DNA of 64,000 nucleotides from an uncultured Maribacter sp. (GCA_947498505.1 CANMKG010000001.1:62001-126000), one strand, 5' to 3'; positions 11,337 through 55,550 are shown, counted from the stretch's first letter. Translations and numbers: made by a program. Notes: generated by a model not told the origin, from the letters alone.

Positions 11337-11343
11337 TTTAAAC

Positions 11344-14718: not shown

Positions 14719-14773
14719 TTTCAGAAAATAAGTTACCGTAAATCATTATATAAATAGATATAATAATAAGATA

Positions 14774-15544: not shown

Positions 15545-15574
15545 AACAAATTCAAACTAAAAAAACGATTAGCA

Positions 15575-17029: not shown

Positions 17030-17040
17030 TAAAGTTAAAA

Positions 17041-17076
17041 ACAGTCTGTGGTATTATATTGCAGGCTGTTTTTTTT
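17041..17076 (+). terminator. Intra-operon terminator-like hairpin
   Basis: ACAGTCTG pairs with CAGGCTGT (one G-T wobble) across an AT-rich loop and is followed by eight T residues. It lies between the aldehyde dehydrogenase stop and the cycloisomerase start 17 bases further on. Either it is partially read through, giving lower expression of the distal genes, or the distal genes have their own promoter, which I could not see. Confidence 0.6.
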
Positions 17077-17092
17077 AATTTATTTTTATTAG

Positions 17093-18187
17093 ATGAGCAC
17101 AAAAATTTCAAAAATAGAATCTAAGTTGTTTAAAGTTCCGTTACCGGAAGTTTTAAATGATGCTAAACACGGTGATCACACCCATTTTGAGTTAGTAACC
17201 ACTACGGTGACTTTGGAAGATGGTAGTGAAGGAACCGGATATACTTATACAGGAGGAAAAGGAGGTCATGCTATAAAAGCAATGGTTGATTATGATTTTA
17301 CTCCTGCGTTAATTGGTCAAGATGGAACGGACATTGACGGCCTTTATGATTTCATGGAATGGCATATTCATTATGTTGGTCGTGGAGGAATAGCTTCTTT
17401 TGCTATTTCCACTATAGATATTGCTTTATGGGATATCAAAAGTAAAAAAGCGGAATTACCATTATGGAAAATGGTCGGAGGAGCAGGAAATACATGTAAA
17501 GCATATTGTGGTGGTATAGATTTACAATTTCCAATTCCCAAATTGTTAAAGAATATGGAAGGTTATTTAGCCGCAGGTTTTAATGCCGTGAAAATTAAAA
17601 TCGGCCGTGAAAATCTAGAAGAAGATTTAGAAAGAATAAGAGCTGTAAGAGAATTTATTGGTCCCGACATTACTTTTATGGTAGATGCTAATTACTCTAT
17701 GAGTAAGGAAAAGGCAATAAAAGCGATAGAAGGTTTTAAAGACCAAAATATAACTTGGTTCGAAGAACCCATTATTCCAGATGACTATAAAGGTTTTGGA
17801 GAAATAGTAGATAAAACTGGATTCCCTTTGGCTATGGGTGAAAACCTACATACCATTCATGAATTTGAATATGCTTTTGATCAAGCTAAACTATCTTTTA
17901 TACAGCCTGATGCATCTAATTGTGGTGGAATCACTGGATGGTTGGCTGCTGCAAGGTTAGCCGATAAACACGGAATACCTGTATGCTCTCATGGTATGCA
18001 AGAACTTCATGTAAGTTTGGTGTCCTCTCAACCCAACTCCGGTTGGTTAGAAGTACATAGCTTTCCTATTGACCAATATACTACTAGACCATTAGTTGTT
18101 GAAAATCATAGAGCAGTAGCTCCTGATTATCCTGGTACTGGAGTAATTTTTAATTGGGAAAAACTAGCGCCACATCAAGTAAAATAA
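17093..18187 (+). CDS. Enolase-superfamily enzyme, probable 3,6-anhydro-L-galactonate cycloisomerase
   Basis: Proposed to open the anhydro ring of 3,6-anhydro-L-galactonate to give 2-keto-3-deoxy-L-galactonate. It is a mandelate-racemase-type protein with a KxK base motif (K167, K169 in VKIKIG), metal ligands D198 (MVDAN), E224 (WFEEP) and E250 (GENLH), and the H300 base (CSHGM) partnered with D273. At 364 aa it matches the AHG cycloisomerase size and is too short for a typical L-fuconate dehydratase (~430 aa). Its place right after the AHG dehydrogenase supports the call. A galactonate or other sugar-acid dehydratase of the same subgroup is the main alternative. Confidence 0.8.
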
Positions 18188-32879: not shown

Positions 32880-32916
32880 AACTATGAGATGTATATAATT
32901 GGTTTGTATTTCAAAA

Positions 32917-32989: not shown

Positions 32990-32999
32990 AGATTATTCA

Positions 33000-34022: not shown

Positions 34023-34043
34023 TTAAAGATAAAATTAAAGTTC

Positions 34044-35021: not shown

Positions 35022-35022
35022 T

Positions 35023-35481: not shown

Positions 35482-35486
35482 TCAGC

Positions 35487-36791: not shown

Positions 36792-37661
36792 TTATTCAAT
36801 TTCTGTATAATGGCGTAAATATTCAGACGGTGATTTGAGTGTTATTTTTTTGAATTGCCTATTAAAATTAGAAATATTGTTAAAACCAGATTCGTAGCAT
36901 ATGGTTGCAATATTTCCGCGCTGTTCAATGAGCTGATTACAAGCGTATCCAATACGTACTTCATTTAAATATGTTGAAAATGTTTTTCTGTTTATTCGTT
37001 TGAAATATCTACTGAAGGAAGAGGGGTTCATCTTTGCTACATTCGCTACATCTTCCAAAGAAATGGGCTTATTAAAATTTTCAAAAATATATTCGTAGGT
37101 GTTATCCAACGTTACGTTTTTTGTTTTATTAAACGTTTTTATGTACCCTTCACTTGAAAGTATTTCATAGTCGTTGTTTAGGGCAAGAGTATTTAAAATA
37201 GTTAATAAGTTAATAGTTCTTTCAAAGCTACTTAAGGTAGTCATTGTTTTTATTTTGTCAAGAACATCGTCACTAACCGAAAGAAATTTAATTCCAAATT
37301 TAGCTCTATGTATAAGTCTGCCAATAGGTTTCATTTCTTTGGTTTCAAAAAAATCTTTACCTAAAAACTCTTCTTTAAAATGAATAACGACATCCTCTGC
37401 AATTAAACCAGAGTTAGCTTCAAAATAACAATCATCATTTACCCACATATGGGGTAAATTTTTTCCAATAAGCACTAAATCACCTTCTTGAAATATTTTA
37501 ATACTATCTCCAACAAATCTGGATCCGGTACTTTTTAGGGTAAGTACTAGTTCTAACTCGGGATGGTAGTGCCAAACCTTTAAAAAAGAGGGCTCTCTAT
37601 GATGTGTAATCATAACAGAGTCGTTCTCTAAATTATCTCTACTTATTAAATGTAGTTTCAT
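36792..37661 (-). CDS. AraC-family transcriptional regulator with cupin sensor domain
   Basis: 289 aa, with an N-terminal cupin (LKVWHYHPELELVLTLKSTG, GDLVLIGKNLPHMW) and C-terminal double helix-turn-helix (ISLEDVANVAKMNPSSFSRY; ATICYESGFNNISNFNRQF). It is divergent from the LgoD-KdgK-KdgA-UxaA-UxaB operon across 176 bases that hold a perfect palindrome and a -7 match, so it is the natural regulator of that operon. It resembles the AraC at 31119-31979 in both domains. Confidence 0.9.
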   Translation of the reverse strand: MKLHLISRDNLENDSVMITHHREPSFLKVWHYHPELELVLTLKSTGSRFVGDSIKIFQEGDLVLIGKNLPHMWVNDDCYFEANSGLIAEDVVIHFKEEFLGKDFFETKEMKPIGRLIHRAKFGIKFLSVSDDVLDKIKTMTTLSSFERTINLLTILNTLALNNDYEILSSEGYIKTFNKTKNVTLDNTYEYIFENFNKPISLEDVANVAKMNPSSFSRYFKRINRKTFSTYLNEVRIGYACNQLIEQRGNIATICYESGFNNISNFNRQFKKITLKSPSEYLRHYTEIE

Positions 37662-37837: not shown

Positions 37838-38848
37838 ATGATATATATAGTTTGTGAAACTCCAGGTACTTTTTTATTGAAAGAAAAAGAAGCACCTCAG
37901 AAAGTAAAAGGTGAAGCACTTTTAAAGGTTAAAAAAGTAGGGATATGCGGTACAGATTTGCATGCCTATGGAGGTAATCAAGCTTTTTTTGAATATCCAC
38001 GAATTTTGGGTCATGAATTGGCTACAGAAGTAATGGAGATTGAAGAAAATCCTCAGGGGATTAAGTCAGGTGATAAAGTTGTGGTAATGCCATATGTCAG
38101 TTGTAAAAAGTGTATTGCATGCAGAAACGGCAAAACAAATTGTTGTACAAATATTAAAGTTTTAGGAGTACATACTGATGGAGGTATGCAAGAAATTATA
38201 TCTGTACCAACAGATTTGCTTATTCCTGCAAATAATTTAAGTGATGATCAAATGGCCATTGTAGAGCCCCTTGCTATAGGAGCCCATGCAATAAGAAGGT
38301 CTCAATTAACTAAAGGAGAAACTGTAGTAGTTGTAGGTTGCGGACCAATTGGAATAGGTATAATGAAATTAGCTCAGATAAAGGGAGCTAAGGTTATTGC
38401 TATAGATATGAATCAGCAACGATTAGACTATGCCAAAGAAAAAATAGGTGTGGACCATATTGTATTGGGAGGAAAAGATGCTGTTAATCAAATTGAAGAA
38501 ATAACTAATGGCGATATGGCAACGGCAGTATATGATGCTACTGGTCATAAAGGAGCTTTAGAAGCAGGGCCAAATTATATGTCACATGGCGGAAGATATG
38601 TTTTGGTTGGTTTATCTAAAGGAGAGTTAACCTTTACGCACCCTGCAATCCATGCAAAAGAAACTACAGTAATGTGCAGCAGAAATGCAACATTAGAAGA
38701 TTTTGAACATGTTATAAATGTTTTGGATCAGTTTCCTACAGAATCATTCATTACGCACAATGTAGATTCATCAAAAATGATTGAAAATTTTGACAGTTGG
38801 TTAGACCCTACTACCGGGGTGATTAAAGCAACTGTTAACTTTAATTAA
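37838..38848 (+). CDS. lgoD: LgoD/YjjN-like L-galactonate 5-dehydrogenase
   Basis: MDR dehydrogenase proposed to oxidise L-galactonate at C5 to D-tagaturonate. It has catalytic-zinc residues in VGICGTDLHAYGG and ILGHE, a full structural-zinc lobe (CKKCIACRNGKTNCC), and the Rossmann motif VVVVGCGPIGIGIMKLA. From memory it resembles E. coli LgoD (YjjN) along its length, including GGNQAFFEYPRILGHE, VLGVHTDGGMQE and KETTVMCSRNATLEDF. Length is 336 aa. It heads an operon ending in UxaA and UxaB, which take tagaturonate to altronate and KDG; no uronate isomerase is present, so this enzyme would supply the tagaturonate. Another polyol or aldonate dehydrogenase of the same clade is the alternative. 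Confidence 0.78.
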   Translation: MIYIVCETPGTFLLKEKEAPQKVKGEALLKVKKVGICGTDLHAYGGNQAFFEYPRILGHELATEVMEIEENPQGIKSGDKVVVMPYVSCKKCIACRNGKTNCCTNIKVLGVHTDGGMQEIISVPTDLLIPANNLSDDQMAIVEPLAIGAHAIRRSQLTKGETVVVVGCGPIGIGIMKLAQIKGAKVIAIDMNQQRLDYAKEKIGVDHIVLGGKDAVNQIEEITNGDMATAVYDATGHKGALEAGPNYMSHGGRYVLVGLSKGELTFTHPAIHAKETTVMCSRNATLEDFEHVINVLDQFPTESFITHNVDSSKMIENFDSWLDPTTGVIKATVNFN

Positions 38849-38891
38849 AATAAACTCAAAACTAAGAAACTAATTTTTAAAAGTAAAACAA

Positions 38892-39938
38892 ATGAAAAAA
38901 GTAGTAACCTTCGGAGAGATAATGCTAAGATTAGCACCTCAGGGATTTTTAAGATTTTCACAGGCCAATAACTTCGATGTTATCTATGGAGGAGGAGAAT
39001 CTAATGTTGCGGTATCTTTAGCCAACTATGGTGTACCAGTTGATTTTGTTACGCGTTTGCCAAAAAACGATATTGGTGAATGTGCAATGATGGAAATGCG
39101 TAAGCGTGGAGTAGGTGTTGACAAAATCGTATATGGTGGAGATCGTTTAGGAATTTATTTCTTAGAAACAGGCGCTGTTAGTAGAGGAAGCAAGGTTGTT
39201 TATGATAGAGCACATTCAGCAATGTCTGAGATAGAATCAGGTATGATTGATTGGGATGCGGTTTTTGAAGGAGTAGAGTGGTTTCACTGGACAGGAATAA
39301 CTCCTGCAATTTCACAAGGGTCAGCAGACGTTTGTTTAGAAGCTGTTAAAGCTGCAAGTGCTAAAGGAATTACAATTTCTACGGACTTAAATTATAGAGC
39401 TAAATTATGGAAGTACTGTAGTGATAAGCACAGAGAAGATGTAATGACCGAATTAACATCATACTGTGATATTGTTTTAGGAAACGAAGAAGATGCAGAA
39501 ATGCACTTTGGTATTAAGCCAGAAGGTATTAGCGTTCAAACTGAAGGCCATAATGTAAAGGCAGAGGCTTTCTTATCTGTTTGTGAGCAAATGATGAAGA
39601 AATTCCCTAAAGCTAAAAAGGTAATTACAACCTTAAGAGGTTCAATTTCTGCTTCTCATAATACTTGGGCGGGTGTTTTATATGATGGTACTACATTATA
39701 TCAAACGCGTCAATATCAAATCACTGATATCGTAGATAGAGTAGGTGGAGGAGATTCGTTTATGGGTGGATTGATTTACGGATTGTTAAAATACCCTGAG
39801 GATGACCAAAATGCATTAGATTTTGCAGTAGCTGCATCATGTTTAAAGCATACGATTAAAGGTGATGCTAACTTAGTTACTGTTGCCGAAGTAGAAAAGT
39901 TAATGGGAGGTGATGCGTCTGGACGTGTTGCTAGATAA
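38892..39938 (+). CDS. kdgK: 2-keto-3-deoxygluconate kinase
   Basis: PfkB-family kinase that phosphorylates KDG to KDPG with ATP. Visible motifs: the N-terminal VTFGEIMLRLAPQG, the GGGESNVAVSLANYG sugar-binding block, and the C-terminal VDRVGGGDSFMGGLIYGL with the catalytic Asp and anion hole (~288-305). Length, 348 aa, is slightly above the usual ~310-340. It follows LgoD by 43 bases. It is the only KDG kinase in the window, so both the AHG branch (via the KduD-like enzyme) and the L-galactonate branch (via UxaA) would converge here. Confidence 0.93.
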   Translation: MKKVVTFGEIMLRLAPQGFLRFSQANNFDVIYGGGESNVAVSLANYGVPVDFVTRLPKNDIGECAMMEMRKRGVGVDKIVYGGDRLGIYFLETGAVSRGSKVVYDRAHSAMSEIESGMIDWDAVFEGVEWFHWTGITPAISQGSADVCLEAVKAASAKGITISTDLNYRAKLWKYCSDKHREDVMTELTSYCDIVLGNEEDAEMHFGIKPEGISVQTEGHNVKAEAFLSVCEQMMKKFPKAKKVITTLRGSISASHNTWAGVLYDGTTLYQTRQYQITDIVDRVGGGDSFMGGLIYGLLKYPEDDQNALDFAVAASCLKHTIKGDANLVTVAEVEKLMGGDASGRVAR

Positions 39939-39957
39939 TTTAAAAAACAATTTAAAA

Positions 39958-39985
39958 AAGTCCTCCTCATTTATGGGGAGGACTT
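39958..39985 (+). other. Strong hairpin between kdgK and kdgA
   Basis: Perfect nine-base arms AAGTCCTCC and GGAGGACTT with a ten-base loop, 19 bases after the kdgK stop and 11 before the kdgA start. It is not followed by T residues on the plus strand, so it is a poor plus-strand terminator; on the minus strand it is followed by T6. An mRNA processing or stability element, or an attenuator, is more likely. Confidence 0.6.
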
Positions 39986-39996
39986 AACTATAAATT

Positions 39997-40665
39997 ATGG
40001 CACAGTTTTCAAGAATAGAAGTTGCAGCGGCAATGAAAGAAACAGGGATGATTCCTTTGTTTTTTAATAACGATATTGAATTAAGTAAAAAGGTATTAAA
40101 AGCTTGTTACGATGGTGGAGCAAGATTAATGGAATTTACTGCTCGTGGTGATTTTGCTCATGAAGTATTTGGAGAGTTAACCAAATATGCTATTGCAGAG
40201 TTACCAGGTATGATAATGGGAGTTGGTTCGGTTACTGATGGTGCGGCTGCGTCATTATATATGGCGTTAGGAGCTAATTTTATCGTTACGCCTGTTTTAA
40301 GAGAAGATATTGCAATAGCTTGTAACCGTAAAAAAGTGTTATGGTCACCAGGTTGTGGTACCTTAACAGAAATTGCTAGAGCCGAGGAATTAGGATGCGA
40401 AATCGTAAAATTATTCCCGGGAGATATATACGGACCTCAGTTTGTAAAAGGTATAAAAGGACCACAGCCGTGGACCTCTATTATGCCAACAGGCGGTGTG
40501 TCTCCAACCGAAGAAAATTTAAAAGGTTGGTTTGATGCAGGTGTTACATGTGTTGGTATGGGCTCTAAATTAATTTCAAAAGAAATTATCGCAAATAAAG
40601 ACTATGCTAAACTAGAACAAGATGTTAAAAAAGCACTTGCAATAGTTAAAGCGGTTAGAAAATAA
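39997..40665 (+). CDS. kdgA: KDPG/KHG aldolase
   Basis: Class I aldolase (Eda family) that splits 2-keto-3-deoxy-6-phosphogluconate to pyruvate and glyceraldehyde-3-phosphate. The Schiff-base lysine is K138 in CEIVKLFPGD, the catalytic Glu is E46 in LMEFTARGD, and phosphate-binding segments GVGSVTD and MPTGGVSPTEENL are present. Length, 222 aa, is normal. It lies 58 bases after kdgK and 11 before uxaA. It finishes the pathway for both proposed sugar branches. Confidence 0.95.
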   Translation: MAQFSRIEVAAAMKETGMIPLFFNNDIELSKKVLKACYDGGARLMEFTARGDFAHEVFGELTKYAIAELPGMIMGVGSVTDGAAASLYMALGANFIVTPVLREDIAIACNRKKVLWSPGCGTLTEIARAEELGCEIVKLFPGDIYGPQFVKGIKGPQPWTSIMPTGGVSPTEENLKGWFDAGVTCVGMGSKLISKEIIANKDYAKLEQDVKKALAIVKAVRK

Positions 40666-40676
40666 CATAAATATAG

Positions 40677-42329
40677 ATGTCCAAGAGTTACGTTCAAATA
40701 GACCCTAGAGATAATATTATTGTAGCAGTTCATAACCTTGAGAAAGGAACCAGGGTGAATATTGCAGGAGAGAGTCTTGATTTACAAGAAGATATCAAAG
40801 GGAAACACAAATTTGCTTTGTATGATTTTGTTATTGGAGATGAAATTCACATGTATGGCGTACTCATTGGTAAAGCAGTACAACCAATTAAAAAAGGTTG
40901 TGCAATTACCATTGAAAATGTAAAGCATGCTTCAGCTCAATTTAATGATAAAACCGAAAAATTTGTTTGGACGGCTCCTGATGCGTCAAAATTTAAAGGA
41001 AGAACTTTTAATGGTTATCACCGTGCTGACGGTAATGTTGGCACGGAAAACCATTGGTTGGTAATTCCGTTAGTGTTTTGTGAAAACAGAAATGTAGATG
41101 TGCTTGAAGGTGCATTAGCTGAGGTCTTGGGTTACGAAACAAAAAAAGATTTTGCAGTAGATACCAGTAAACTTATAGAAAAGTATAAAGCGGGTGCTAC
41201 AAGTGAAGAACTATATACAACACCAATTATTACTACCAGGGAGGAAATGTCTAAAAATAGGGTGTTTCCAAATGTAGATGGTATTAAGTTTTTAAAACAT
41301 GATGGTGGATGTGGAGGAATTCGACAAGACGCCGAAGTACTTTGTAATTTATTGGCAGGATATATAAATCATCCGAATGTTGCAGGGGCAACTGTGTTTA
41401 GTCTTGGTTGTCAAAATGCACAAGTAGAAATGCTCCAAAAGGCTATAGCTAATAAAAATTCTAATTTTTCAAAGCCTGTTCATTATATAGAACAGCAAAA
41501 ATCGGAAAGTGAACGTAAACTTATAGAAGAGGCAGTAAAACATACTTTTGTTGGTCTGGTTGAAGCAAATAAAATAGAACGTAAACCTGCTCCTTTAAGT
41601 AAATTGGTTTTAGGACTAGAATGTGGAGGCTCAGATGGTTTTTCTGGTATTTCAGCTAATCCTGCTTTAGGTTATGCTTCAGATTTATTAGTAGCTTTAG
41701 GTGGAGCCCCTGTATTAGCAGAGTTTCCAGAGTTAAATGGAGTAGAGCAAGAATTAATAACAAGGTGCGAGAAAGAAGAAGATGCCAAGAAGTTTGCTAG
41801 TTTAATGCGCTCCTATTCTGCTGCTGCTGTTGCAGTAGGTTCTGGATTTGAAAACAACCCTTCTCCTGGTAATATAAAAGATGGACTGATTACTGATGCG
41901 ATGAAATCTGCTGGTGCAGCTAAAAAAGGAGGCACTTCTCCAGTTGTTGAAGTACTGGACTATGCAGAATCTGTTACCAAATCTGGTTTAAATTTACTGT
42001 GTACGCCTGGAAACGATGTTGAAAGTACCACAGGACTTGCTGGATCTGGATGTAATGTTATTGTATTTACTACTGGTTTAGGTACACCAACAGGTAATCC
42101 AATTGCTCCGGTACTTAAAATGTCTAGTAATACGCATTTATATGAAAAAATGAATGACATTATTGATATTAATGCAGGAACAGTAATTACTGGCGAAGAT
42201 ACCATTGAGAGTATGGGAGAAAAAGTACTTGAGCATATTATTAAGGTTGCTAGTGGTGAGGTTGCTGCCAAGGCAAATATTAAAGGGCAAAACGATTTTA
42301 TTCCTTGGAAAAGAGGAATTTCACTATAA
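40677..42329 (+). CDS. uxaA: D-altronate dehydratase
   Basis: Iron-dependent lyase that converts D-altronate to KDG. The N-terminal ~90 residues are the SAF domain (ALYDFVIGDEIHMYGVLIGK), followed by the catalytic UxaA domain: TFNGYHRADGNVGTENHWLV, the cysteine-bearing FLKHDGGCGGIRQD, LGLECGGSDGFSGISANPAL, and a C-terminal TGLGTPTGNPIAPVLK. At 550 aa it is somewhat longer than E. coli UxaA (~495) but holds both domains in one chain. It is between kdgA and uxaB, 11 and 8 bases from each. Galactarate dehydratase is a related family; the uxaB neighbour favours altronate. Confidence 0.93.
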   Translation: MSKSYVQIDPRDNIIVAVHNLEKGTRVNIAGESLDLQEDIKGKHKFALYDFVIGDEIHMYGVLIGKAVQPIKKGCAITIENVKHASAQFNDKTEKFVWTAPDASKFKGRTFNGYHRADGNVGTENHWLVIPLVFCENRNVDVLEGALAEVLGYETKKDFAVDTSKLIEKYKAGATSEELYTTPIITTREEMSKNRVFPNVDGIKFLKHDGGCGGIRQDAEVLCNLLAGYINHPNVAGATVFSLGCQNAQVEMLQKAIANKNSNFSKPVHYIEQQKSESERKLIEEAVKHTFVGLVEANKIERKPAPLSKLVLGLECGGSDGFSGISANPALGYASDLLVALGGAPVLAEFPELNGVEQELITRCEKEEDAKKFASLMRSYSAAAVAVGSGFENNPSPGNIKDGLITDAMKSAGAAKKGGTSPVVEVLDYAESVTKSGLNLLCTPGNDVESTTGLAGSGCNVIVFTTGLGTPTGNPIAPVLKMSSNTHLYEKMNDIIDINAGTVITGEDTIESMGEKVLEHIIKVASGEVAAKANIKGQNDFIPWKRGISL

Positions 42330-42337
42330 CATTTTAA

Positions 42338-43771
42338 ATGAAAACATTAAATAGAAACGCAGTATCAGTAAACACATATACCGAAAGAATTTTACAATTT
42401 GGAGAGGGTAATTTTTTAAGAGCCTTTGCCGATTGGATGATTCATGAAATGAACAAAAAAGCAAATTTTGATGCTGGTATAGTGGTGGTACAACCTATAA
42501 ATCAGGGTTTGGTTAAAATGTTGAATGACCAAGATGGTTTATATACGTTATATCTTAATGGAATAAAAAGTGGAAAAGCAATCAGTCAGCATGAAGTTAT
42601 TGATTGCATCCAACGAGCAATTAATCCGTATGAGAATTTTACAGGCTATTTAGCTAACGCAACAAACCCTAATTTACGTTTCGTAATTTCTAATACCACC
42701 GAGGCTGGCATAGCTTATAATGAAGGAGATAGATTAGAAGATGCTCCTCAAAAAAGCTTTCCGGGTAAACTAACAGCTTTACTTTATAAAAGGTTTCAGA
42801 CATTCCAAGGAGCTTCAGATAAAGGTTTAATCATTATTCCTTGTGAGTTGATAGACCGTAATGGAGATAACCTAAAAAAAATAATTCTAAAGTATGCTAA
42901 CGATTGGAAGTTAGGTGAAGCGTTTATAAATTGGATTAATGAGGATAATGTTTTTTGCAATACTTTGGTAGATAGAATAGTACCGGGGTACCCTAGAGAT
43001 AAAATGGATGCAATTACCAAAGAACTTGGATATCAAGATAATTTGGTTGTTGAAGGAGAACAGTTTCACCTTTGGGTTATAGAAGGACCAAAAGAAGTAA
43101 AAGAAGAATTTCCTTCAGAGGCATGTGGACTCAATGTTGTTTTTACAGATGATATGGAGCCCTATAGAACCCGTAAAGTTCGAATTTTAAATGGAGCGCA
43201 CACCACATTGGTTCCTGTTGGGTATTTGTATGGTATAGAAAAAGTAAGAGAGTCGCTGGAAGATGATGTTGTTGGTGAATTCCTTAAAAATGCTATTTTT
43301 GAGGAAATTTGTCCTACTCTTGATTTGCCAGAAGAAGAGCTAAATACGTTTTCTAATGATGTTTTAGATCGCTTTAGAAATCCTTATTTAGAACATGCTT
43401 TAATGAGTATTTCGTTAAACTCAATTTCTAAATACAAAACAAGGGTATTACCATCTGTTTTGGAATATGTAAAACGAAAAAATGAGTTGCCAAATAGATT
43501 ATTGTTTTCATTAGCAGCTTTAATTGCATTTTACAAAGGAGAGCGTAATGGTGAAAAAATAGCTTTAAAGGATAATGTTGAAGTCTTGGATTTTTTCAAA
43601 AATCAGTGGAGTAAAAATGACTACGCTGAAATCGTAAATTCGGTGTTAAGTAATACTAATTTTTGGGGAACAGATTTAACGCAGGTAAGCGGATTAGAAG
43701 AGTTGGTTAAAAATCATCTTGAAGTAATTATCACAAAAGGGATAGATGTAGCTATTAAAACTATTGTATAG
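42338..43771 (+). CDS. uxaB: Tagaturonate reductase (altronate oxidoreductase)
   Basis: NADH-dependent reductase of the long-chain mannitol dehydrogenase family that reduces D-tagaturonate to D-altronate. The N-terminal ILQFGEGNFLRAFADWMIHE is the nucleotide-binding motif; the catalytic Lys/Asn/His set lies around RKVRILNGAHTTLVPVGYLYG. Length, 477 aa, fits E. coli UxaB (~483). It is the last gene of the operon. Tagaturonate would normally come from D-galacturonate by UxaC; no uxaC is present, while an LgoD-like enzyme begins the same operon. Confidence 0.93.
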   Translation: MKTLNRNAVSVNTYTERILQFGEGNFLRAFADWMIHEMNKKANFDAGIVVVQPINQGLVKMLNDQDGLYTLYLNGIKSGKAISQHEVIDCIQRAINPYENFTGYLANATNPNLRFVISNTTEAGIAYNEGDRLEDAPQKSFPGKLTALLYKRFQTFQGASDKGLIIIPCELIDRNGDNLKKIILKYANDWKLGEAFINWINEDNVFCNTLVDRIVPGYPRDKMDAITKELGYQDNLVVEGEQFHLWVIEGPKEVKEEFPSEACGLNVVFTDDMEPYRTRKVRILNGAHTTLVPVGYLYGIEKVRESLEDDVVGEFLKNAIFEEICPTLDLPEEELNTFSNDVLDRFRNPYLEHALMSISLNSISKYKTRVLPSVLEYVKRKNELPNRLLFSLAALIAFYKGERNGEKIALKDNVEVLDFFKNQWSKNDYAEIVNSVLSNTNFWGTDLTQVSGLEELVKNHLEVIITKGIDVAIKTIV

Positions 43772-44015
43772 TTTTTTTGTTCTTAACTGTTTGATTTTTA
43801 ATATCAAAAGTGTTTCTATAAGCGATTATTCGCTTAATATATTCTTTATGAGCGTAACATTGGTTCTATTGTACTAACCATATGTTATACTCTTAAGAAC
43901 AATTTTTGCGTTTTTGGGAGGTCAATTAAACTACTTTGGCGTACCGTAAGATTAAACGCAGCAATAAATAATTTTTTAGGCAATGTTTTATTGCCGAAAC
44001 TAACGAATTAATATT
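43772..44015 (+). promoter_or_regulatory. Control region upstream of the GH29 operon
   Basis: No coding frame in these 244 bases. Three inverted repeats stand out: TAAGCGA/TCGCTTA (43819-43836), possibly a weak terminator for uxaB; GTA.TAAC/GTTATAC (43871-43890), an operator candidate; and GGCAAT/ATTGCC (43979-43995), close to the GH29 start. TACTTTGG near 43932 is a 7/8 match to the -7 consensus. Confidence 0.4.
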
Positions 44016-45560
44016 ATGAAATTAACCTATATAAAAACTTTAGCACTTTCTGCATCTATGTTGGCGGTTTCTTGCGGAGAAGAAAAATCAGAAAATGCCA
44101 TAGAAAAAGAGGTAAAACAAATTGTAATCGAAAATCCTTATACTGAAGACTGGGAATCTCTTGGTAAACATAATGAGTCTCCAGAATGGTTTAAAGATGC
44201 AAAACTTGGAATATATTTTCATTGGGGAGTATATTCTGTTCCTGCATTTCACTCAGAGTGGTATCCTCGAAATATGCACTTTGAAGATCACAAAGTATAT
44301 AAACACCATGTTGAAAAATATGGGGAACCTTCTGAATTTGGTTACCATGATTTTGTGCCTATGTTTAAAGCGGAAAATTTTAATCCAAAAGAGTGGGTAG
44401 ATCTTTTTTACGAAGCAGGGGCAAAGTTTGCAGGTCCAGTGGCGGAGCATCATGATGGTTTTTCCATGTGGGATAGTGAAGTTACTCCATGGAATGTAGT
44501 GGACAGGGGACCAAAGAGAGACATTACTGGAGAGATTGAAAAAGAAATTCGTAAGCGAGATATGAAACTCATAACTACATTTCATCACTCTAAAAATTTA
44601 CAGTTAAGTAAGGAGTTAGGCAAAGAAAATCCTAATAGCCATTTTCCATATTTTGATGGGATGCCTCCAAGTTCTAATGACCCGGAGTTGCAGCTTATGT
44701 ACGGTAATATGGAACCTGAAAAATGGTATAAAGAAATATGGTTCCCTAAGTTGAAAGAGGTGATAGATAAATATAGCCCAGATATTGTTTGGTTTGATTA
44801 TGTTTTGGGCGATATTCCAGAAAAATATAGGAAAGAATTTGCAGCGTATTACTTAAACGAGGCAAAAAAAGATGACAAAGAAGTTGTTATAGTTCGCAAG
44901 CAACACGATTTACCGTTAAATATGAGTGTTGAGGATTTAGAACAATCACGTAAAAATGTTATTGGTACAAAAACTTGGATGACCGATGCTACCATTAGTG
45001 ATGGTAGCTGGTCATATACTGATGATTTAGGTGTTAAAGAGGCTAAAGATGTTTTACATATTCTTATAGACATAACAAGTAAGAACGGAGTGTTATTGCT
45101 AAATGTTTCTCCAAAAGCAGATGGGACAATTCCAGAAGATCAAAAAGAAAGTTTATTGAGCATGGGGAGCTGGTTGAAAAAGTATGGTGAAGCTATTTAT
45201 GGAACAGAAGCTTGGTATACTTTTGGAGAAGGACCAACGAAAGAACCTAAAGGTCATTTTAAAAATCATAAAGATTTTATGAAGCTTAAGTATTCTAATA
45301 AAGATATTAGGTATACAACAAAAGATTATAATATTTATGCCATTGTATTAGGAGATATCTCGGCAAACAAGGAGTTGTTACTAACTTCTTTTGCAACAGA
45401 TAAGGTTCATGATAAACCGTCTATAGAAAGTGTTTCTTTTTTAGGAAGTAATGAAAAAATAGAATGGGCTTTGGATGAAGAAAAAGGATTAAAAGTAAAG
45501 GCTCCATCTAATCCAGTAGATGAAATGGCCACGGTAATTAAAATAACTATTTCTCAATAA
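44016..45560 (+). CDS. GH29 alpha-L-fucosidase-family lipoprotein, possibly an alpha-L-galactosidase
   Basis: Retaining exo-glycosidase. Lipobox LAVSC anchors it to a membrane facing the periplasm or surface. The GH29 barrel starts at PEWFKDAKLGIYFHWGVYS (~57-75), with the AEHHDGFSMWDS block (~143-154) and the nucleophile D261 in IVWFDY. A C-terminal beta domain follows from ~400. GH29 enzymes act on alpha-L-fucose, and alpha-L-galactosidase activity is also reported for the family; L-galactose is 6-hydroxy-L-fucose. Since porphyran carries L-galactose and the following operon genes would oxidise L-fucose or L-galactose, an alpha-L-galactosidase is plausible. Subsite evidence for accepting O6 was not checked. 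Confidence 0.88.
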   Translation: MKLTYIKTLALSASMLAVSCGEEKSENAIEKEVKQIVIENPYTEDWESLGKHNESPEWFKDAKLGIYFHWGVYSVPAFHSEWYPRNMHFEDHKVYKHHVEKYGEPSEFGYHDFVPMFKAENFNPKEWVDLFYEAGAKFAGPVAEHHDGFSMWDSEVTPWNVVDRGPKRDITGEIEKEIRKRDMKLITTFHHSKNLQLSKELGKENPNSHFPYFDGMPPSSNDPELQLMYGNMEPEKWYKEIWFPKLKEVIDKYSPDIVWFDYVLGDIPEKYRKEFAAYYLNEAKKDDKEVVIVRKQHDLPLNMSVEDLEQSRKNVIGTKTWMTDATISDGSWSYTDDLGVKEAKDVLHILIDITSKNGVLLLNVSPKADGTIPEDQKESLLSMGSWLKKYGEAIYGTEAWYTFGEGPTKEPKGHFKNHKDFMKLKYSNKDIRYTTKDYNIYAIVLGDISANKELLLTSFATDKVHDKPSIESVSFLGSNEKIEWALDEEKGLKVKAPSNPVDEMATVIKITISQ

Positions 45561-45564
45561 TATT

Positions 45565-46392
45565 ATGATTATAGATTCTCATCAGCATTTTTGGAAATAC
45601 GAAGCTGAAAAACATAGTTGGATAGATGATGATATGTCTGTCATTAGACGTGATTTTTTACCTTCAGATTTAGAAAAAGTATATGAAGAAAATGGTGTGG
45701 ATGGATGCGTAGTCGTACAGGCTGATCAGACAATTGAAGAGAATACTTTTTTATTGGAATTAGCCAAACAACATAGTTTTATAAAAGGTATAGTTGGTTG
45801 GGTTGATTTACGAAGTAATACTGTTGAAAAAAAATTGGAAGAGTATAGTCAACAGGTCAAAATAAAGGGGTTTAGACATGTGGTACAAGGAGAGCCCGAT
45901 CATAATTTTTTACTTAGGCCAAATTTTTTAAGAGGTATTTCTAATTTAGAAAAATTCAACTTTGTTTATGATATATTGGTGTTTCCACATCAATTAGGAG
46001 CGGTTTTAGAGTTTGTTAAGCTATTTCCAAATCAAAAATTTGTTATAGATCATATTGCTAAACCTTATATAAAGGATGGTTTTTTTGAAGGATGGGCAAC
46101 ATTAATGAGTGCAATAGCAAAACATGAAAATGTATATTGCAAGTTGTCAGGTATGGTTACTGAAGCCGATTATAAAACTTGGACAGAAATTCAATTAGAG
46201 CCATACATGAATCACGTTTTAAATATTTTTGGAAGTGATAGAGTATTGTTTGGTTCAGATTGGCCAGTATGTCTTGTTGCTTCCAATTATACAAGAATGA
46301 AAAATACCTTATCAAATTTTATAGCAAGTTTAAGCCAAACGGAACAAGATGCTATAATGGGCAGTAACGCGGTTGAATTTTATAATTTATAA
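45565..46392 (+). CDS. Amidohydrolase-family sugar lactonase (L-fucono/L-galactono-lactonase type)
   Basis: 275 aa cytoplasmic TIM-barrel hydrolase of the COG3618 type, opening a 1,4- or 1,5-lactone to the aldonate. Motifs: N-terminal DSHQHFWKYE (metal-binding His pair), FRHVVQGEPD, FVIDHIAKP, and the C-terminal LFGSDWPV with the catalytic Asp. It starts 4 bases after the GH29 stop and is followed 8 bases later by an SDR dehydrogenase, which would make the lactone. L-fucono-, L-galactono- and L-rhamnono-lactonases are all in this group; the operon suggests the first two. Confidence 0.85.
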   Translation: MIIDSHQHFWKYEAEKHSWIDDDMSVIRRDFLPSDLEKVYEENGVDGCVVVQADQTIEENTFLLELAKQHSFIKGIVGWVDLRSNTVEKKLEEYSQQVKIKGFRHVVQGEPDHNFLLRPNFLRGISNLEKFNFVYDILVFPHQLGAVLEFVKLFPNQKFVIDHIAKPYIKDGFFEGWATLMSAIAKHENVYCKLSGMVTEADYKTWTEIQLEPYMNHVLNIFGSDRVLFGSDWPVCLVASNYTRMKNTLSNFIASLSQTEQDAIMGSNAVEFYNL

Positions 46393-46400
46393 AAATTGCT

Positions 46401-47192
46401 ATGGATTTAAATTTAAAAGGAAAAGTAGTAGTAATCAGTGGGGCAGCAGGTATAAAAGGCAGCATCGGAGAAACTATTTTGCAAAAACTAGCAGAAGAAG
46501 GGGCTATTCCCGCGGTTATCGATAGAAATGCAAGAGGTTTTGAATATGTAAAAGAGCTTCAAGAAAAAGGTGTAGACGCGACCTTTTATCAAACCGATGT
46601 AACTAAACCAGATCAAATACAAAATGCGGTAGAAGCTATTTCTAAAAAATATGGAACTATAGATATTGTTATCAACAATGTGGGAGTTAATGATGGTGCG
46701 GGATTAGATGCTTCTTACGAAGAGTTTATGAACTCTCTTAAGTTGAATATGGTAAGCTATTTTCTTATCGTAAAACATGCGTTACCACTGCTGAAAAAAT
46801 CAAAAGGAAATATCTTAAATATAGGCTCAAAAGTAGGATTAACCGGTCAGGGAGGAACCTCTGGATATGCTGCTGCTAAAGGAGGTGTTTTAGGTTTAAC
46901 AAGAGAATGGGCAGTTGATTTAATTAAAGAAGGTATTCGTGTAAATGCAATTATTATTGCTGAAAGTTGGACTCCCGCTTATGACAATTGGATAAAAACA
47001 CTTGAAAATGGGGAGGAAAAATTAAAATCAATTGTAAAGAAAATTCCTTTAGAAAATAGAATGACTACTCCTAAGGAAATTGCGAACACATGTTTGTTTA
47101 CAATATCAGAGAAGTCATCTCATACCACGGGGCAGTTTATTACTGTAGATGGAGGTTATGTGCATTTGGATAGGTCATTATTAACAGAATAA
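46401..47192 (+). CDS. SDR dehydrogenase, L-fucose/L-galactose dehydrogenase type
   Basis: Classical SDR of 263 aa that would oxidise the C1 of a free L-sugar to its lactone. It shows a somewhat extended glycine motif (SGAAGIKGSIGE, ~13-24), NNVG near 94, a Ser in LNIGSKVGLTG, and the YAAAK catalytic pair. Similar enzymes in the oxidative L-fucose pathway often accept L-galactose. The gene is between the lactonase and a FucP-type permease. The rest of the oxidative L-fucose route (L-fuconate dehydratase, 2-keto-3-deoxy-L-fuconate dehydrogenase and hydrolase) is not seen. Confidence 0.8.
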   Translation: MDLNLKGKVVVISGAAGIKGSIGETILQKLAEEGAIPAVIDRNARGFEYVKELQEKGVDATFYQTDVTKPDQIQNAVEAISKKYGTIDIVINNVGVNDGAGLDASYEEFMNSLKLNMVSYFLIVKHALPLLKKSKGNILNIGSKVGLTGQGGTSGYAAAKGGVLGLTREWAVDLIKEGIRVNAIIIAESWTPAYDNWIKTLENGEEKLKSIVKKIPLENRMTTPKEIANTCLFTISEKSSHTTGQFITVDGGYVHLDRSLLTE

Positions 47193-47261
47193 ATATGTAT
47201 TCTGTTCATTAGACGAATTAGATATTACATTTATAAACCAACTTAAAATAATAAAATAATT

Positions 47262-48584
47262 ATGAGCGCAGAAAGTAAAGTCCCTGTAGTAGCAAAATCT
47301 ATTTTAATTCCGTTTATACTCATTACCTCTTTATTTGCCTTGTGGGGGTTGGCTAATGATATGACGAATCCTATGGTAAGAGGGTTTCAGAAGGTGTTAG
47401 AGCTTACAAATGTGCAAGCATCATTAGTGCAACTAGCATTTTACGGAGGGTATTTTACAATGGCAATTCCTGCAGCATTATTTGTAAACAAGTTTTCATA
47501 TAAAAAGGGAGTACTTGTTGGTTTAGCTTTATACGCTTGTGGCGCGTTACTATTTTACCCTGCAGCGGCAAACGAAAGTTATGCATTCTTTTTAGCAGCA
47601 TTGTACATTTTAACTTTTGGACTAGCATTTTTGGAAACAACAGCAAACCCTTACGTATTATCAATGGGAGCGGAGGAAACTGCTACTAGACGTTTAAATT
47701 TTGCTCAAATGTTTAATCCAATGGGATCTATTACGGGTTTACTTATAGCACAAAACTTTGTTTTAGGGGCGTTACAATCCGATGATACTACCGCAGACGG
47801 TACAGCTATTTACGATACCCTTTCTGAAACAGCTAAGGCGGCAATACGAACTTCTGATTTAGCTGTTATTCGTAATCCATATGTTATTTTAGGAATTGTA
47901 GTTTTGGTATTTTTTATTCTGATAAGTATTTTAAAAATGCCAGAAAATAAAACTCAAGGGGCAAAGGTCAAATTTTCTGAATCGGTACAGAGATTATGGA
48001 AACAACCAAAGTTTTCTTTTGGAGTAATTGCTCAGGCATTTTATGTAGGGGCTCAAATTATGTGTTGGACATACGTATATCAATATGCTGAAACTCTAGG
48101 AATAGATAGTAAATCCGCTGTTACATATGGTTTGGCAGGGTATATTGTTTTTCTAGTTGGTAGAACGGTCGGCACTGCTTTAATGGCAAAAATGGATTCA
48201 GGTAAATTACTTATGTTTTTTGGATTAGGAGCAATGACAACTGTTTTGGGAGCAATCTTTTTACCAGGAATGACAGGTATTTATTCATTGGTAGCAACAT
48301 CCTTCTTTTTGTCAATTATGTTTCCAACGATTTATGGTATTGCATTAGAGGGGCAAGGTGAAGATGCTAAATTTGGCGCTGCGTTTTTGGTAATGGCAAT
48401 AGTTGGTGGAGCTTTATTACCTTACCTTAAAGGGTATATTTTAGATTTTGGAGGTAGCGGGTACGAAGACACTTTGTTTTTAGGAGTAACCGAAATGAGA
48501 TATTCGTTTTTTCTTTCGTTAGTATGTTTACTTGTGGTAACTCTTTACGGAAGAAAGGTTTATAAAGTATATAATAAGAAGTAA
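47262..48584 (+). CDS. fucP: FucP-type L-fucose/H+ symporter (MFS)
   Basis: 440 aa, twelve predicted helices, in the major facilitator FHS group. Features include the N-terminal LITSLFALWGLANDMTNPM, the helix LAFYGGYFTMAIPAALFVNK, and FLETTANPYVLSMG with the Thr-Asn pair seen in FucP. It probably imports L-fucose or L-galactose (the E. coli protein also transports L-galactose) after GH29 cleavage in the periplasm. It starts 69 bases after the SDR and is followed by the mutarotase one base later. Confidence 0.9.
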   Translation: MSAESKVPVVAKSILIPFILITSLFALWGLANDMTNPMVRGFQKVLELTNVQASLVQLAFYGGYFTMAIPAALFVNKFSYKKGVLVGLALYACGALLFYPAAANESYAFFLAALYILTFGLAFLETTANPYVLSMGAEETATRRLNFAQMFNPMGSITGLLIAQNFVLGALQSDDTTADGTAIYDTLSETAKAAIRTSDLAVIRNPYVILGIVVLVFFILISILKMPENKTQGAKVKFSESVQRLWKQPKFSFGVIAQAFYVGAQIMCWTYVYQYAETLGIDSKSAVTYGLAGYIVFLVGRTVGTALMAKMDSGKLLMFFGLGAMTTVLGAIFLPGMTGIYSLVATSFFLSIMFPTIYGIALEGQGEDAKFGAAFLVMAIVGGALLPYLKGYILDFGGSGYEDTLFLGVTEMRYSFFLSLVCLLVVTLYGRKVYKVYNKK

Positions 48585-48585
48585 T

Positions 48586-48930
48586 ATGAGCGTAGTAAAG
48601 CGATATTGTCTTTCATGTGATTTAAAAGATGACCCTAAATTAATAGCAGAGTATAAAAACTATCATGCGGCTGGAAATGCGTGGCCTGAAATCACGAAAA
48701 GTATAAAAGATGCGGGTATATTAGATATGCAGATTTATTTAACAGGAAATCGCATGTTTATGATAATGGAGGTGAATGAGACTTTTGATCCAAATAAAAA
48801 GGCGGAAATGGATGCTAATAATCCAAAAGTACAGGAGTGGGAACAATTGATGTGGAACTATCAACAAGAACTACCTTGGGCTAAAAAAGGAGAGAAGTGG
48901 ATTGAAATGGAAAAGGTATTTCAGTTGTAA
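48586..48930 (+). CDS. L-rhamnose mutarotase-family protein (RhaM/YiiL type)
   Basis: 114 aa small ferredoxin-like enzyme that would speed anomer exchange of a 6-deoxy- or L-hexose. It begins YCLSCDLKDDPKLIAEYKNY with the family's conserved H in YHAAGNAWPEI and the C-terminal WEQLMWNYQQELPWAKKGEKW. In this operon it likely supplies the L-fucose or L-galactose anomer used by the SDR dehydrogenase. FucU is the usual L-fucose mutarotase, but this is not FucU-like. It ends in a strong bidirectional terminator. Confidence 0.88.
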   Translation: MSVVKRYCLSCDLKDDPKLIAEYKNYHAAGNAWPEITKSIKDAGILDMQIYLTGNRMFMIMEVNETFDPNKKAEMDANNPKVQEWEQLMWNYQQELPWAKKGEKWIEMEKVFQL

Positions 48931-49008: not shown

Positions 49009-52290
<3,282 letters not shown>

Positions 52291-52304: not shown

Positions 52305-53990
52305 TTAATCGTTCCAGTGTTCATCAATTACTTTTTGAATGTGCGGATAATTAGCATCTGTTTCATTGAGATTTTCTCTCATTGTAATTAATTGAGCCTT
52401 CAATTTACCAATAATATCCTTATACTTTGGATTATTGTAAGCGTTATTCATTTCTTTTGGGTCATTTTTTAAATCATAAAACTCCCAAGATACAGGTGTA
52501 TGATTAGCAAAATCGTTACCCCAACTTTCTTTGTTATATTCTGCGTTAGGGTTATCTGTATCTACCCAATATTTTCCGTAGTAAAAAATGAGCTTATGTT
52601 CTTTAGTGCGTATACCAAAGTGGGCAGGGTTTTGGTGTCGGTGCGCTAAATGCATCCAATAGCGGTAGTAGGTTGCTTGTTGCCAATTTTCAGGCTCTTT
52701 TCCAGTTTCCAGTATGGATTTAAAGCTATTTCCTTGCATATACGCCGGTTTTTCTCCACCAGCAAGTTGTATTAGGGTCGGAGCAAAATCAGTGTTGTTT
52801 ATTATAGCATCAGTTCTAGAACCTGGAGTAATAGATTTTGGATAGCGCACAAAAAATGGCATTCGCATGGATTCTTCATACATCCAACGCTTATCAATAT
52901 AATCGTGTTCACCAAGCATGAATCCTTGGTCACCGGTGTAAACAATAATGGTGTTTTCTAATAAGTTTTCTGCTTCTAAATAATCCAATAGGCGCTTTAC
53001 GTTATCGTCGACGCCCTTTACACATCTCAAATATTTTTTTAAATAATCCTGATAAACTTTACTTGTATATGTTTTTTCATCGGCAGTTAATTCAAATTTT
53101 GCATATTCATTGGGCTGAATGTCCCTAGCATTTCTATATTGTTTATAAATAGTGCTATCGTTCCAATAAATATTCATAGCCTGGTTACGAATATGGTTTC
53201 TATGAGATACAGATGATCCAATTATTCGTGTTAAGGAGTCGTTTACTCCTCTAGTAGCAACGGAACCATTGTTTTTGTTATCGTATAGACTCTCTGGCTC
53301 AGGTATAAAAGTGTTTGCTAGATAATTTTCGTATCGCGGAGCATATTCAAAATCGTCATGGGGAGCTTTAAAGTGATGCATTAAAAAGAAAGGTTTATCT
53401 GGATTTCTTTCTTTCTTTAGCCAGTTAAGAGCTATATCTGTAACGTTATCAGAAGAGTGTCCTTTTCTTTTTTCAATATTTTCAGGCCAAGGTTTGTCTC
53501 CTTGAATTCTGAACTCAGGGTCAAAGTACTTTCCTTGAGCTGGAAATACTTTGTAGTAATCAAAAGCAGCAGGTTCTTCATGTAAATGCCATTTACCAAT
53601 CATTGCCGTTTCATAACCTAATTTTTTCATTTCTTTTGGTAAATATTGCTTTTCCGGAGGTAGTACTCCTTCTAAATCAATGACACCATTAGTTTGCGCA
53701 CGTTGACCCGTCATTATTGCCGCTCTACTGGGTACACATATGGAGTTGTTTACAAAACAATTGTCAAAAATTATTCCATCGTTCGCTAATTTATCCAAGG
53801 TTGGAGTAGGGTTTAAGCTAGCCAGTCGGCTGCCATAAATGCCAAAAGCCTGACTGGTGTGGTCATCTGCCATAATATAGATTATGTTTGGCTTTTGTGC
53901 GGTTTTTTCTGTTTTTTCAGCACAGGAATGTAGCACTAAAAGAATTATAAAAATTACGTAGAATAGGAGCTTTTTAACCAACGTTAGCAT
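52305..53990 (-). CDS. Family S1 formylglycine sulfatase (lipoprotein)
   Basis: 561 aa arylsulfatase-type enzyme with a lipoprotein signal (lipobox VLHSC). The maturation motif is CVPSRAAIMTG: C85 should become formylglycine, with R89 beside it. Calcium ligands are the D42-D43 pair in MADDHTS and DQ in YTGDQGFMLGEHD; a further His sits in IGKWHLHEEP. Sequence style suggests the S1_11-like group (GlcNAc-6-sulfatase-related), which contains a sulfatase acting on L-galactose-6-sulfate in porphyran. The group assignment is by eye. No formylglycine-generating enzyme or anSME is in the window. It is 143 bases after the cytochrome gene, upstream of GH2. Confidence 0.9.
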   Translation of the reverse strand: MLTLVKKLLFYVIFIILLVLHSCAEKTEKTAQKPNIIYIMADDHTSQAFGIYGSRLASLNPTPTLDKLANDGIIFDNCFVNNSICVPSRAAIMTGQRAQTNGVIDLEGVLPPEKQYLPKEMKKLGYETAMIGKWHLHEEPAAFDYYKVFPAQGKYFDPEFRIQGDKPWPENIEKRKGHSSDNVTDIALNWLKKERNPDKPFFLMHHFKAPHDDFEYAPRYENYLANTFIPEPESLYDNKNNGSVATRGVNDSLTRIIGSSVSHRNHIRNQAMNIYWNDSTIYKQYRNARDIQPNEYAKFELTADEKTYTSKVYQDYLKKYLRCVKGVDDNVKRLLDYLEAENLLENTIIVYTGDQGFMLGEHDYIDKRWMYEESMRMPFFVRYPKSITPGSRTDAIINNTDFAPTLIQLAGGEKPAYMQGNSFKSILETGKEPENWQQATYYRYWMHLAHRHQNPAHFGIRTKEHKLIFYYGKYWVDTDNPNAEYNKESWGNDFANHTPVSWEFYDLKNDPKEMNNAYNNPKYKDIIGKLKAQLITMRENLNETDANYPHIQKVIDEHWND

Positions 53991-55528: not shown

Positions 55529-55550
55529 TAAAATGTGGTGTTAATAGCTT

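Follow-up and report, generated by a model that had tools for sequence, protein, structure and literature searches.

The ten-gene cassette and its surroundings

The window analysed here is a 64,000-nucleotide stretch of DNA from an uncultured Maribacter sp. (GCA_947498505.1, CANMKG010000001.1:62001-126000), in which ten genes at 37838-48930 had been named in an original prediction and joined into a route for L-galactose. All ten were real open reading frames (ORFs) on the + strand, lying where predicted, and their families agreed with the names. Families were assigned by Pfam and NCBIfam profile searches, with scores judged against the curated NCBIfam cut-offs. These were passed for UxaB, the 2-keto-3-deoxy-6-phosphogluconate (KDPG) aldolase, the L-fucose dehydrogenase of the short-chain dehydrogenase/reductase (SDR) type and FucP; the lactonase and kinase models remained below them. 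Judged by its gene families and neighbours, the cassette is probably an L-galactose catabolic module set in a region for the use of agarans (porphyran/agarose).

The first gene encodes an LgoD-like Zn dehydrogenase (37838..38848), a relative of Escherichia coli LgoD and a predicted L-galactonate 5-dehydrogenase (L-galactonate to D-tagaturonate). It is followed by a KdgK-like PfkB kinase (38892..39938; PF00294), predicted to convert 2-keto-3-deoxygluconate (KDG) to KDPG, and by the KDPG aldolase KdgA/Eda (39997..40665; NF005499, 382 bits, cut-off 275). For the kinase, the best NCBIfam match was to the kinase portion of a fused KDPG aldolase/kinase, and all KDG kinase models fell below cut-off. 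A UxaA-like D-altronate dehydratase of the UxaA/GarD family (40677..42329; PF20629/PF04295/PF08666), the sole PF04295 match in the whole genome, precedes the D-tagaturonate reductase UxaB (42338..43771; NF002969, 709 bits, cut-off 359), which shares 49% identity with E. coli UxaB versus 26% with UxuB. Further downstream are a GH29 with a lipoprotein-like start, either an alpha-L-galactosidase or an alpha-L-fucosidase (44016..45560; PF01120), and an amidohydrolase predicted to be an L-galactono-1,5-lactonase (45565..46392; PF04909, 1e-46; nearest solved chain 4dlf, 5.2e-52). The last three genes encode an SDR of the L-fucose dehydrogenase family, predicted to be an L-galactose 1-dehydrogenase (46401..47192; NF052481, 363 bits, cut-off 300; nearest solved chain 4gkb), a FucP-type sugar:H+ symporter (47262..48584; TIGR00885, 514 bits, cut-off 280) and a RhaM-family sugar mutarotase (48586..48930; PF05336, 7.4e-33).

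The intergenic gaps are, in order, 43, 58, 11, 8, 244, 4, 8, 69 and 1 bases. The 244-base gap between uxaB and GH29, standing among otherwise short ones, fits two transcription units with a boundary between 43771 and 44016. The two adjacent operons originally proposed are thus plausible from the gap pattern, but the terminator adds nothing: a terminator-like hairpin was found at 43819-43836 in a scan that returned 6 sites in total against 6.3 in shuffled sequence, and neither promoter nor terminator scans of the cassette gave a signal above chance. Divergent from the lgoD operon is a gene for an AraC-type protein (36792..37661, - strand; PF12833). Homologues of 53-62% identity are found upstream of lgoD in five other loci (L065, L070, L086, L087 and L089), and the protein is likely the regulator of this operon.

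Among eight chosen E. coli medium-chain dehydrogenases, LgoD was closest to the Zn dehydrogenase (41%, 276 bits), and the runner-up, RspB, was 113 bits behind (163 bits). In a tree of 26 chosen rows, the window protein and E. coli LgoD fell into one clade (support 97/98), which stands apart from RspB, Tdh, GatD, IdnD and others, several long branches being present. The protein is LgoD kin, and L-galactonate is its predicted substrate.

Downstream of the cassette, on the - strand, are a LacZ-type GH2 beta-galactosidase (49009..52281; NF052611, 1019 bits, cut-off 999) and, beyond it, a sulfatase (52305..53990) with a CxPxR motif from residue 85. The hydrophobic N-terminus of the GH2 suggests that it is probably exported. 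The nearest solved chains of the sulfatase were 7lha and 7lj2, both labelled exo-L-galactose-6-sulfatase, together with 7snj and 7sno, with E values of about 1e-182 to 1e-180 (7lha 1.7e-182, 7snj 5.8e-182); the next solved chain dropped to 3.4e-108. 7snj and 7sno represent Bacteroides plebeius BpS1_11, according to an excerpt of PMC12316285. The window protein was predicted to be an exo-L-galactose-6-sulfatase.

An agarose module is located on the + strand in the first third of the window. It starts with GH2 and GH117 (3,6-anhydro-alpha-L-galactosidase) genes at 8802..12582, the first recognised by its GH2 domains and the second, at 11290-12582, matching 3p2n at 2.7e-237. An anhydro-L-galactose operon at 13702..18187 encodes a Zn-dependent alcohol dehydrogenase (Zn-ADH) and an aldehyde dehydrogenase (both by Pfam), a KduD-like SDR (TIGR01832, 317 bits, below the cut-off of 338.85) and a cycloisomerase. 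The latter (17093-18187) was considered as an L-fuconate dehydratase and rejected, being a 3,6-anhydro-L-galactonate cycloisomerase by its match to 5xd7 (6.9e-187). Over 8802-20300 the module also includes an IclR gene between GH117 and the Zn-ADH, and GalM and a RhaT-like transporter after the cycloisomerase. With the sulfatase, GH2, GH117 and anhydro-L-galactose operon, the region looks like an agaran-type rather than a fucoidan-type one. The agarose end-module stops at KDG, and the matching kinase and aldolase are located in the L-galactose operon.

The route suggested by these genes is as follows, its substrates, reactions and cellular locations being predictions. An extracytoplasmic sulfatase (52305-53990) would strip the 6-sulfate from terminal L-galactose, and glycosidases (a GH29, GH2 and GH117) would liberate L-galactose, D-galactose and 3,6-anhydro-L-galactose. 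L-galactose would be taken up by FucP, its anomers being equilibrated by the RhaM-family protein. The SDR would then oxidize it to L-galactono-1,5-lactone, which the amidohydrolase would open to L-galactonate. Oxidation at C5 by the LgoD-like enzyme would give D-tagaturonate, and its reduction by UxaB would give D-altronate, turning C5 from L to D; dehydration by UxaA would yield KDG. KdgK and KdgA would convert KDG through KDPG to pyruvate and glyceraldehyde 3-phosphate. The anhydro-L-galactose operon would use the same device of C5 oxidation and subsequent reduction and likewise end at KDG. Because both operons converge on KDG, KdgK and KdgA could serve both L-sugars.

The L-galactose reading was favoured because it gives a role to the whole cassette, including the LgoD relative, UxaB, UxaA, KdgK and KdgA. 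The earlier claim that each L-galactose step has a gene is borne out in this sense, and the agaran neighbours agree with it. L-fucose has no hydroxyl group at C6, so UxaB and KdgK would be idle in an L-fucose route. Searches for L-fucose enzymes pointed the same way in part. No enolase-type L-fuconate dehydratase is encoded at 37838-48930. FucI (PF02952) had no match in the genome, with a positive E. coli control. A full-length diketo-deoxy-sugar hydrolase (FAH, about 284 residues) was also missing from the genome, where two frames of 206-207 residues matched at 36-40% within residues 72-252. The view that the L-fucose set is incomplete therefore holds for the cassette and for FucI and full-length FAH genome-wide, but not firmly for the dehydratase: the enolase superfamily (PF13378) had eight matches in the genome, two of which were examined closely (17093-18187 and one on contig C5).

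Conservation in relatives and exchange of the predicted first dehydrogenase

The distribution of the cassette was surveyed around relatives of LgoD. Of 295 genomes sampled from the class, 15, including the one studied here, had an LgoD match at E <= 1e-70. A scan of named genomes then gave at least 80 loci around LgoD relatives. The 80 listed were annotated, with the window proteins and a small number of additional proteins serving as markers, and counted by identity thresholds. All locus counts below refer to the 80 listed loci, some of which end at a contig edge; P. vulgatus is outside them. The best LgoD loci among those listed included ones from Zobellia, Arenibacter, Lutibacter, Mariniflexile, Maribacter, Wenyingzhuangia and Aquimarina, several of which are known degraders of algal polysaccharides.

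UxaB without FAH was found in 33 loci, FAH without UxaB in 12, both in one (L104, Belliella) and neither in 34. The 33 UxaB-type loci contained UxaA in 30 cases, the lactonase in 28, the SDR in 25, an aldo-keto reductase (AKR) in four and the sulfatase (at least 55% identity, within the fetched stretch) in eight. The commonest order, lgoD-uxaA-uxaB-lactonase-SDR-fucP-rhaM, occurred in 10 of the 33, and with kdgK-kdgA after lgoD in six. As this order recurs around relatives of other genera, the arrangement goes beyond chance, and lgoD-(kdgK-kdgA)-uxaA-uxaB-(GH29)-lactonase-SDR-fucP-rhaM is a conserved flavobacterial cassette.

The SDR and the AKR were never found together in the UxaB-type loci (0/33). 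In Lutibacter agarilyticus (L052), Mariniflexile (L053), Wenyingzhuangia (L062) and Flavobacterium sp. UMI-01 (L068), the AKR gene lies exactly between lactonase and fucP, which is the slot of the SDR. These slot AKRs are 51-52% identical to an aldo-keto reductase of the C5 locus (PF00248), and no NCBIfam model scored above cut-off. That two unrelated sugar dehydrogenases share one slot is the best sign that the slot serves the first oxidation of the same sugar, and we infer that the slot AKR is an L-galactose dehydrogenase. LguA, BVU_0219 and plant GalDH presumably form a cluster within the AKR superfamily. The clustering of the L-galactose dehydrogenases LguA and BVU_0219 with plant GalDH is reported in the available part of PMC12632266. 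A search for the AKR in the family of genome G114 gave matches in 7 of 201 genomes; at the five places fetched, the AKR stood beside an enolase instead.

Genome-wide association was analysed in the 49 genomes behind the UxaB-type (32), FAH-type (12) and a few other loci. A sulfatase at least 60% identical over most of its length was present in 21/32 UxaB-type versus 0/12 FAH-type genomes (Fisher p 8e-5), and the cycloisomerase in 21/32 versus 1/12 (Fisher p 1.5e-3), figures that are not independent because the UxaB and FAH labels cluster on the trees, with two changes on the LgoD tree and three on the SDR tree; habitat may follow lineage. For the LgoD tree, 8 of the 14 relatives from the 295-genome sample were used. 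Two FAH-type genomes had sulfatase relatives of 45-47%.

GH29, uxaC and competing explanations

Several results weigh against an L-galactose function, the clustering of labels just mentioned among them. Eleven of the 32 UxaB-type genomes lacked a sulfatase with at least 60% identity over most of its length (three of these had full-length relatives of 42-50%, and one had pieces of 63%), and 11 lacked the cycloisomerase, making porphyran as the sole use unlikely. The models matched by SDR and lactonase are L-fucose models, the lactonase reaching 266 bits with NF052480 (L-fuconolactonase; cut-off 400). The UxaA-like protein is 31% identical (261 bits) to E. coli UxaA and 34% (236 bits) to GarD; identity does not separate the two, the bit score favours UxaA, and the galactarate model was below cut-off. 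An L-fuconate dehydratase might be encoded elsewhere in the genome, among the six other enolase-superfamily genes. The clade of E. coli LgoD also contains FAH-type relatives and the C5 paralogue, so that LgoD kinship alone is no proof of L-galactonate as substrate. Beside relatives of LgoD, SDR and lactonase, FAH was counted in 13 loci out of 80 and a KDF-type SDR in 11, and in three FAH loci (L077, L087 and L089, from Confluentibacter and two Aestuariibaculum) LgoD is about 70% identical to that of the window. From the literature, in the accessible part of PMC6946681, the related SDRs of Burkholderia and Campylobacter showed weak activity on L-galactose, and L-galactose gave Campylobacter jejuni no gain in growth.

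FAH clusters, often with a KDF-type SDR, suit L-fucose; either they process both sugars, or the LgoD relative has a different role there. Flavobacterium clusters with FAH, an LgoD relative, SDR, lactonase and mostly a KDF-type SDR were seen at L035 (10487-12122) and L114-L126. The FAH of L035 scored 368 bits against the 2,4-didehydro-3-deoxy-L-rhamnonate hydrolase model (cut-off 500), and no L-fuconate dehydratase was recognised in L035 on inspection by eye.

GH29 had been taken as the opening step of the L-galactose route, and this part of the prediction was not sustained. The best solved chain for the window GH29 was 7snk, labelled alpha-L-fucosidase, followed by 7ljj, 7lk7 and 7lnp, labelled exo-alpha-L-galactosidase. 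We took 7snk as BpGH29; its printed stretch resembles that of 7ljj. The window GH29 is 39% identical to 7snk, and a GH29 on contig C2 of the same genome 43%. The solved-chain search alone suggested an orthologue of BpGH29, which was rejected by a GH29 tree with 38 rows, of which 35 were different. A BpGH29-like clade in this tree comprised 15 rows of proteins 42-47% identical to 7snk: the C2 gene, entered twice, and genes from 13 of the 80 loci, where they lie no more than about 3 kb upstream of lgoD; 7snk itself was at a fork without resolution. The window GH29 lies outside this clade, a further point against the L-galactose reading, and groups with those of L065, L070 and L120, all in the slot between uxaB and lactonase; L070 carries both types. 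GH29 of at least 65% identity was found in three of the 80 loci, all UxaB-type. Given its separate clade, the window enzyme may cut another L-galactosidic linkage or be a fucosidase. Its candidate nucleophile is Asp261, and the aligned residue in chain 7lnp is N.

The C2 BpGH29-like gene adjoins a GH16 frame (288 residues) in a stretch (L142, G000:C2:252500-272400, at 5272-13902) that also encodes a second GH29 and GH2-like and sulfatase-like proteins, a possible porphyran locus. The C2 GH16 scored 89 bits with the kappa-carrageenase model, below the cut-off of 350. GH16 matched four stretches in three frames of the genome, and PF18206 (GH86 porphyranase) had no match in the genome and likewise none in any control.

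A second locus, on contig C5 (L028, G000:C5:254500-274000), encodes an enolase, SDR, AKR, LgoD paralogue (41%) and FucP, with GH29 genes after them (7032-12341 and 16981-18492). Another family (L153) also has the enolase-SDR-AKR-ADH run, at 80, 77 and 66% and with an LgoD relative. The C5 locus could encode a dehydratase-first route for L-galactose or L-fucose. A 157-residue frame at 13546-14019, upstream of a full-length GH29, matches only the C-terminal part of GH29 and is remnant-like.

The alternative that survives best, possible though not favoured, divides the cassette: SDR, lactonase, FucP, RhaM and GH29 would take L-fucose besides or instead of L-galactose, the L-fuconate being used elsewhere, and lgoD-kdgK-kdgA-uxaA-uxaB would take L-galactonate. 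SDR and FucP pass L-fucose models and the lactonase approaches its own, GH29 had ten profile matches in the genome, homologous cassettes carrying FAH exist, and the C5 locus might accept L-fuconate; relatives of the SDR prefer L-fucose (PMC6946681, available part). On the other side, the genome yielded neither full-length FAH nor FucI in our searches, and no L-fuconate dehydratase was among the 29 solved chains matching the C5 enolase at E <= 1e-25, the best being an anhydrogalactonate cycloisomerase (4.3e-47). Moreover, UxaB stands without FAH in 33 of 80 loci, 25 of which keep the SDR.

The claimed absence of UxaC, from which D-tagaturonate could otherwise be supplied, was true of the window proteins scanned but not of the genome, in which uxaC lies at C2:642407-643786 (652 bits, 49% to E. 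coli UxaC). This gene is on another contig than the cassette, lined up with UxuA and an SDR in a glucuronate-type operon. The L-galactose route is left standing by this gene, yet it counts against exclusive use, as D-galacturonate could also feed the window UxaA and UxaB. Taken further, kdgK-kdgA-uxaA-uxaB would be a module for D-galacturonate, supplied by the C2 UxaC and the upstream tripartite ATP-independent periplasmic (TRAP) transporter and KduI, beside an unrelated fucose operon, with a different substrate for the Zn dehydrogenase. We consider this improbable. The DctP-type TRAP protein and KduI at 32040-35021 and the location here of the single UxaA of the genome speak for it. Against it are the company of uxaC, the first position of lgoD in the operon and the mostly constant order of lgoD, uxaA, uxaB, lactonase, SDR/AKR and fucP in relatives, and the rarity of matches to uxaC (1/80 loci, L104), KduI (3/80) and DctP (1/80).

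The least probable alternative, which we hold to be very unlikely, is a Campylobacter-like route in which the UxaA-like protein would act as an L-fuconate dehydratase, its product being cleaved without prior phosphorylation; the dehydratase of the C. jejuni fuc locus is, we assume, UxaA-like. That locus combines the SDR FucX, FucP, a hydrolase, a mutarotase and a dehydratase (PMC6946681, available part), and UxaA (61%) lies beside the FAH clusters of L087 and L089, but such a route gives no role to UxaB, KdgK or LgoD, the window aldolase is KDPG-type and not DapA-like, and 31 of the 34 loci with UxaB also contain UxaA.

Returning to L-galactose catabolism as the preferred function, we regard as evenly balanced a fuller scenario in which the L-fucose-dehydrogenase-type SDR took over from, or was replaced by, the known AKR within an otherwise fixed gene order. 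The GH29 subclade of the cassette would act on L-galactosides, and the cassette and the anhydro-L-galactose operon would make up one island turning both agaran L-sugars into the D-series, meeting at KDG.

Other genes of the window were also annotated. KduI, a LacI regulator, a DctP-type TRAP protein and two ORFs resembling its membrane subunits occupy 32040-36782, probably a uronate-type module that is seldom retained with the cassette in relatives. A protein with a 3-keto-disaccharide hydrolase domain (PF06439) is encoded further upstream at 28168-29040. Adjoining the sulfatase on the - strand, 54134-61532 encodes a series of planctomycete-type cytochrome and DUF1501/DUF1549/DUF1553 proteins (PSCyt1, PSCyt2, PSD1) and an NHL-repeat protein.

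Comparison with known systems

Hobbs et al. are said to have described in 2014 an L-galactose pathway in Phocaeicola (Bacteroides) vulgatus that includes BVU_0220, and its first-step enzyme, BVU_0219, is presumably an AKR. Chemistry from L-galactose to D-tagaturonate is reported for BVU_0219 and BVU_0222 (cited in PMC12632266, as excerpted), and in Luteolibacter sp. LG18 the same reaction chain was demonstrated with enzymes and gene disruptions (PMC12632266). The assertion that no flavobacterial pathway of this form had been described holds for the gene set, of which no description in flavobacteria was found in the searched excerpts of openly licensed PMC literature. It does not extend to the chemistry, which is known in P. 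vulgatus, a member of the same phylum, and in Luteolibacter.

Compared by description, P. vulgatus shares with the window a dehydrogenase, a lactonase and an L-galactonate dehydrogenase followed by hexuronate enzymes. The first enzyme there belongs to the cluster of LguA and plant GalDH; the corresponding slot in the window holds an SDR and no AKR-type L-galactose 1-dehydrogenase. In the window, a single cluster joins the hexuronate enzymes with the transporter and the mutarotase, and agaran enzymes adjoin it. Luteolibacter, of the Verrucomicrobiota, unites in lguABCDEF a dehydrogenase, an LgoD-type step, tagaturonate reductase, altronate dehydratase and KDPG aldolase (PMC12632266, available part). 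Its pathway is a dual one for L-glucose and L-galactose, the dehydrogenase is of the BVU_0219 cluster, and the KDG kinase LguH is PPi-preferring and encoded outside the cluster. Unlike the window, the cluster as given in the figure legend has no lactonase, FucP, RhaM or GH29. In E. coli the steps of LgoD-UxaB-UxaA-KdgK-Eda are identical from L-galactonate onward (PMC12632266, as excerpted), but the route starts at L-galactonate, with its own transporter LgoT, and by gene annotation lgoD, uxaA and uxaB are at three places.

The oxidative L-fucose pathway of Burkholderia and Campylobacter resembles the cassette in SDR, FucP, mutarotase and hydrolase/lactonase, but UxaB, KdgK and LgoD are unneeded there, and it has a different dehydratase and different final steps (PMC6946681, available part). 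For the porphyran polysaccharide utilization locus of B. plebeius (BpS1_11, BpGH29 and BpGH2C; PMC12316285, as excerpted), the likeness is in the sulfatase, that of the window being closest to BpS1_11 and 7lha/7lj2, and in the adjacent GH2 beta-galactosidase; the difference is in GH29, as the member of the BpGH29-like clade is on C2 beside GH16. The agarose table of Aquimarina sp. ERC-38 (PMC10163077, as excerpted) lists the same enzymes as 8802-18187 in the same order, with the IclR gene interposed in the window. In that strain KDG kinase and KDPG aldolase are encoded elsewhere; here they belong to the L-galactose operon. A Maribacter proteome paper places tagaturonate reductase in a sugar-acid operon, its available text leaving L-galactose unmentioned (PMC11036162), and an unexplained GH29 has been pointed out in a Paraglaciecola agarolytic cluster (PMC5943477, as excerpted).

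The swap of an SDR for an AKR offers a system for studying the evolution of sugar specificity. Much work has been done on how porphyran, in which L-galactose 6-sulfate is abundant, is depolymerised. What marine flavobacteria do with the L-galactose set free was not described in the openly licensed literature searched, and the cassette beside a predicted exo-L-galactose-6-sulfatase offers a concrete route. If the fuller scenario is true, the fate of red-algal L-galactose would be directly testable in Zobellia and relatives. The labels L-fucose dehydrogenase, fuconolactonase, FucP and alpha-L-fucosidase may denote L-galactose in algal degraders. Relative to the known systems, the pathway chemistry is already established; what is new is the flavobacterial cassette, the exchange of SDR and AKR, and the placement in an agaran island.

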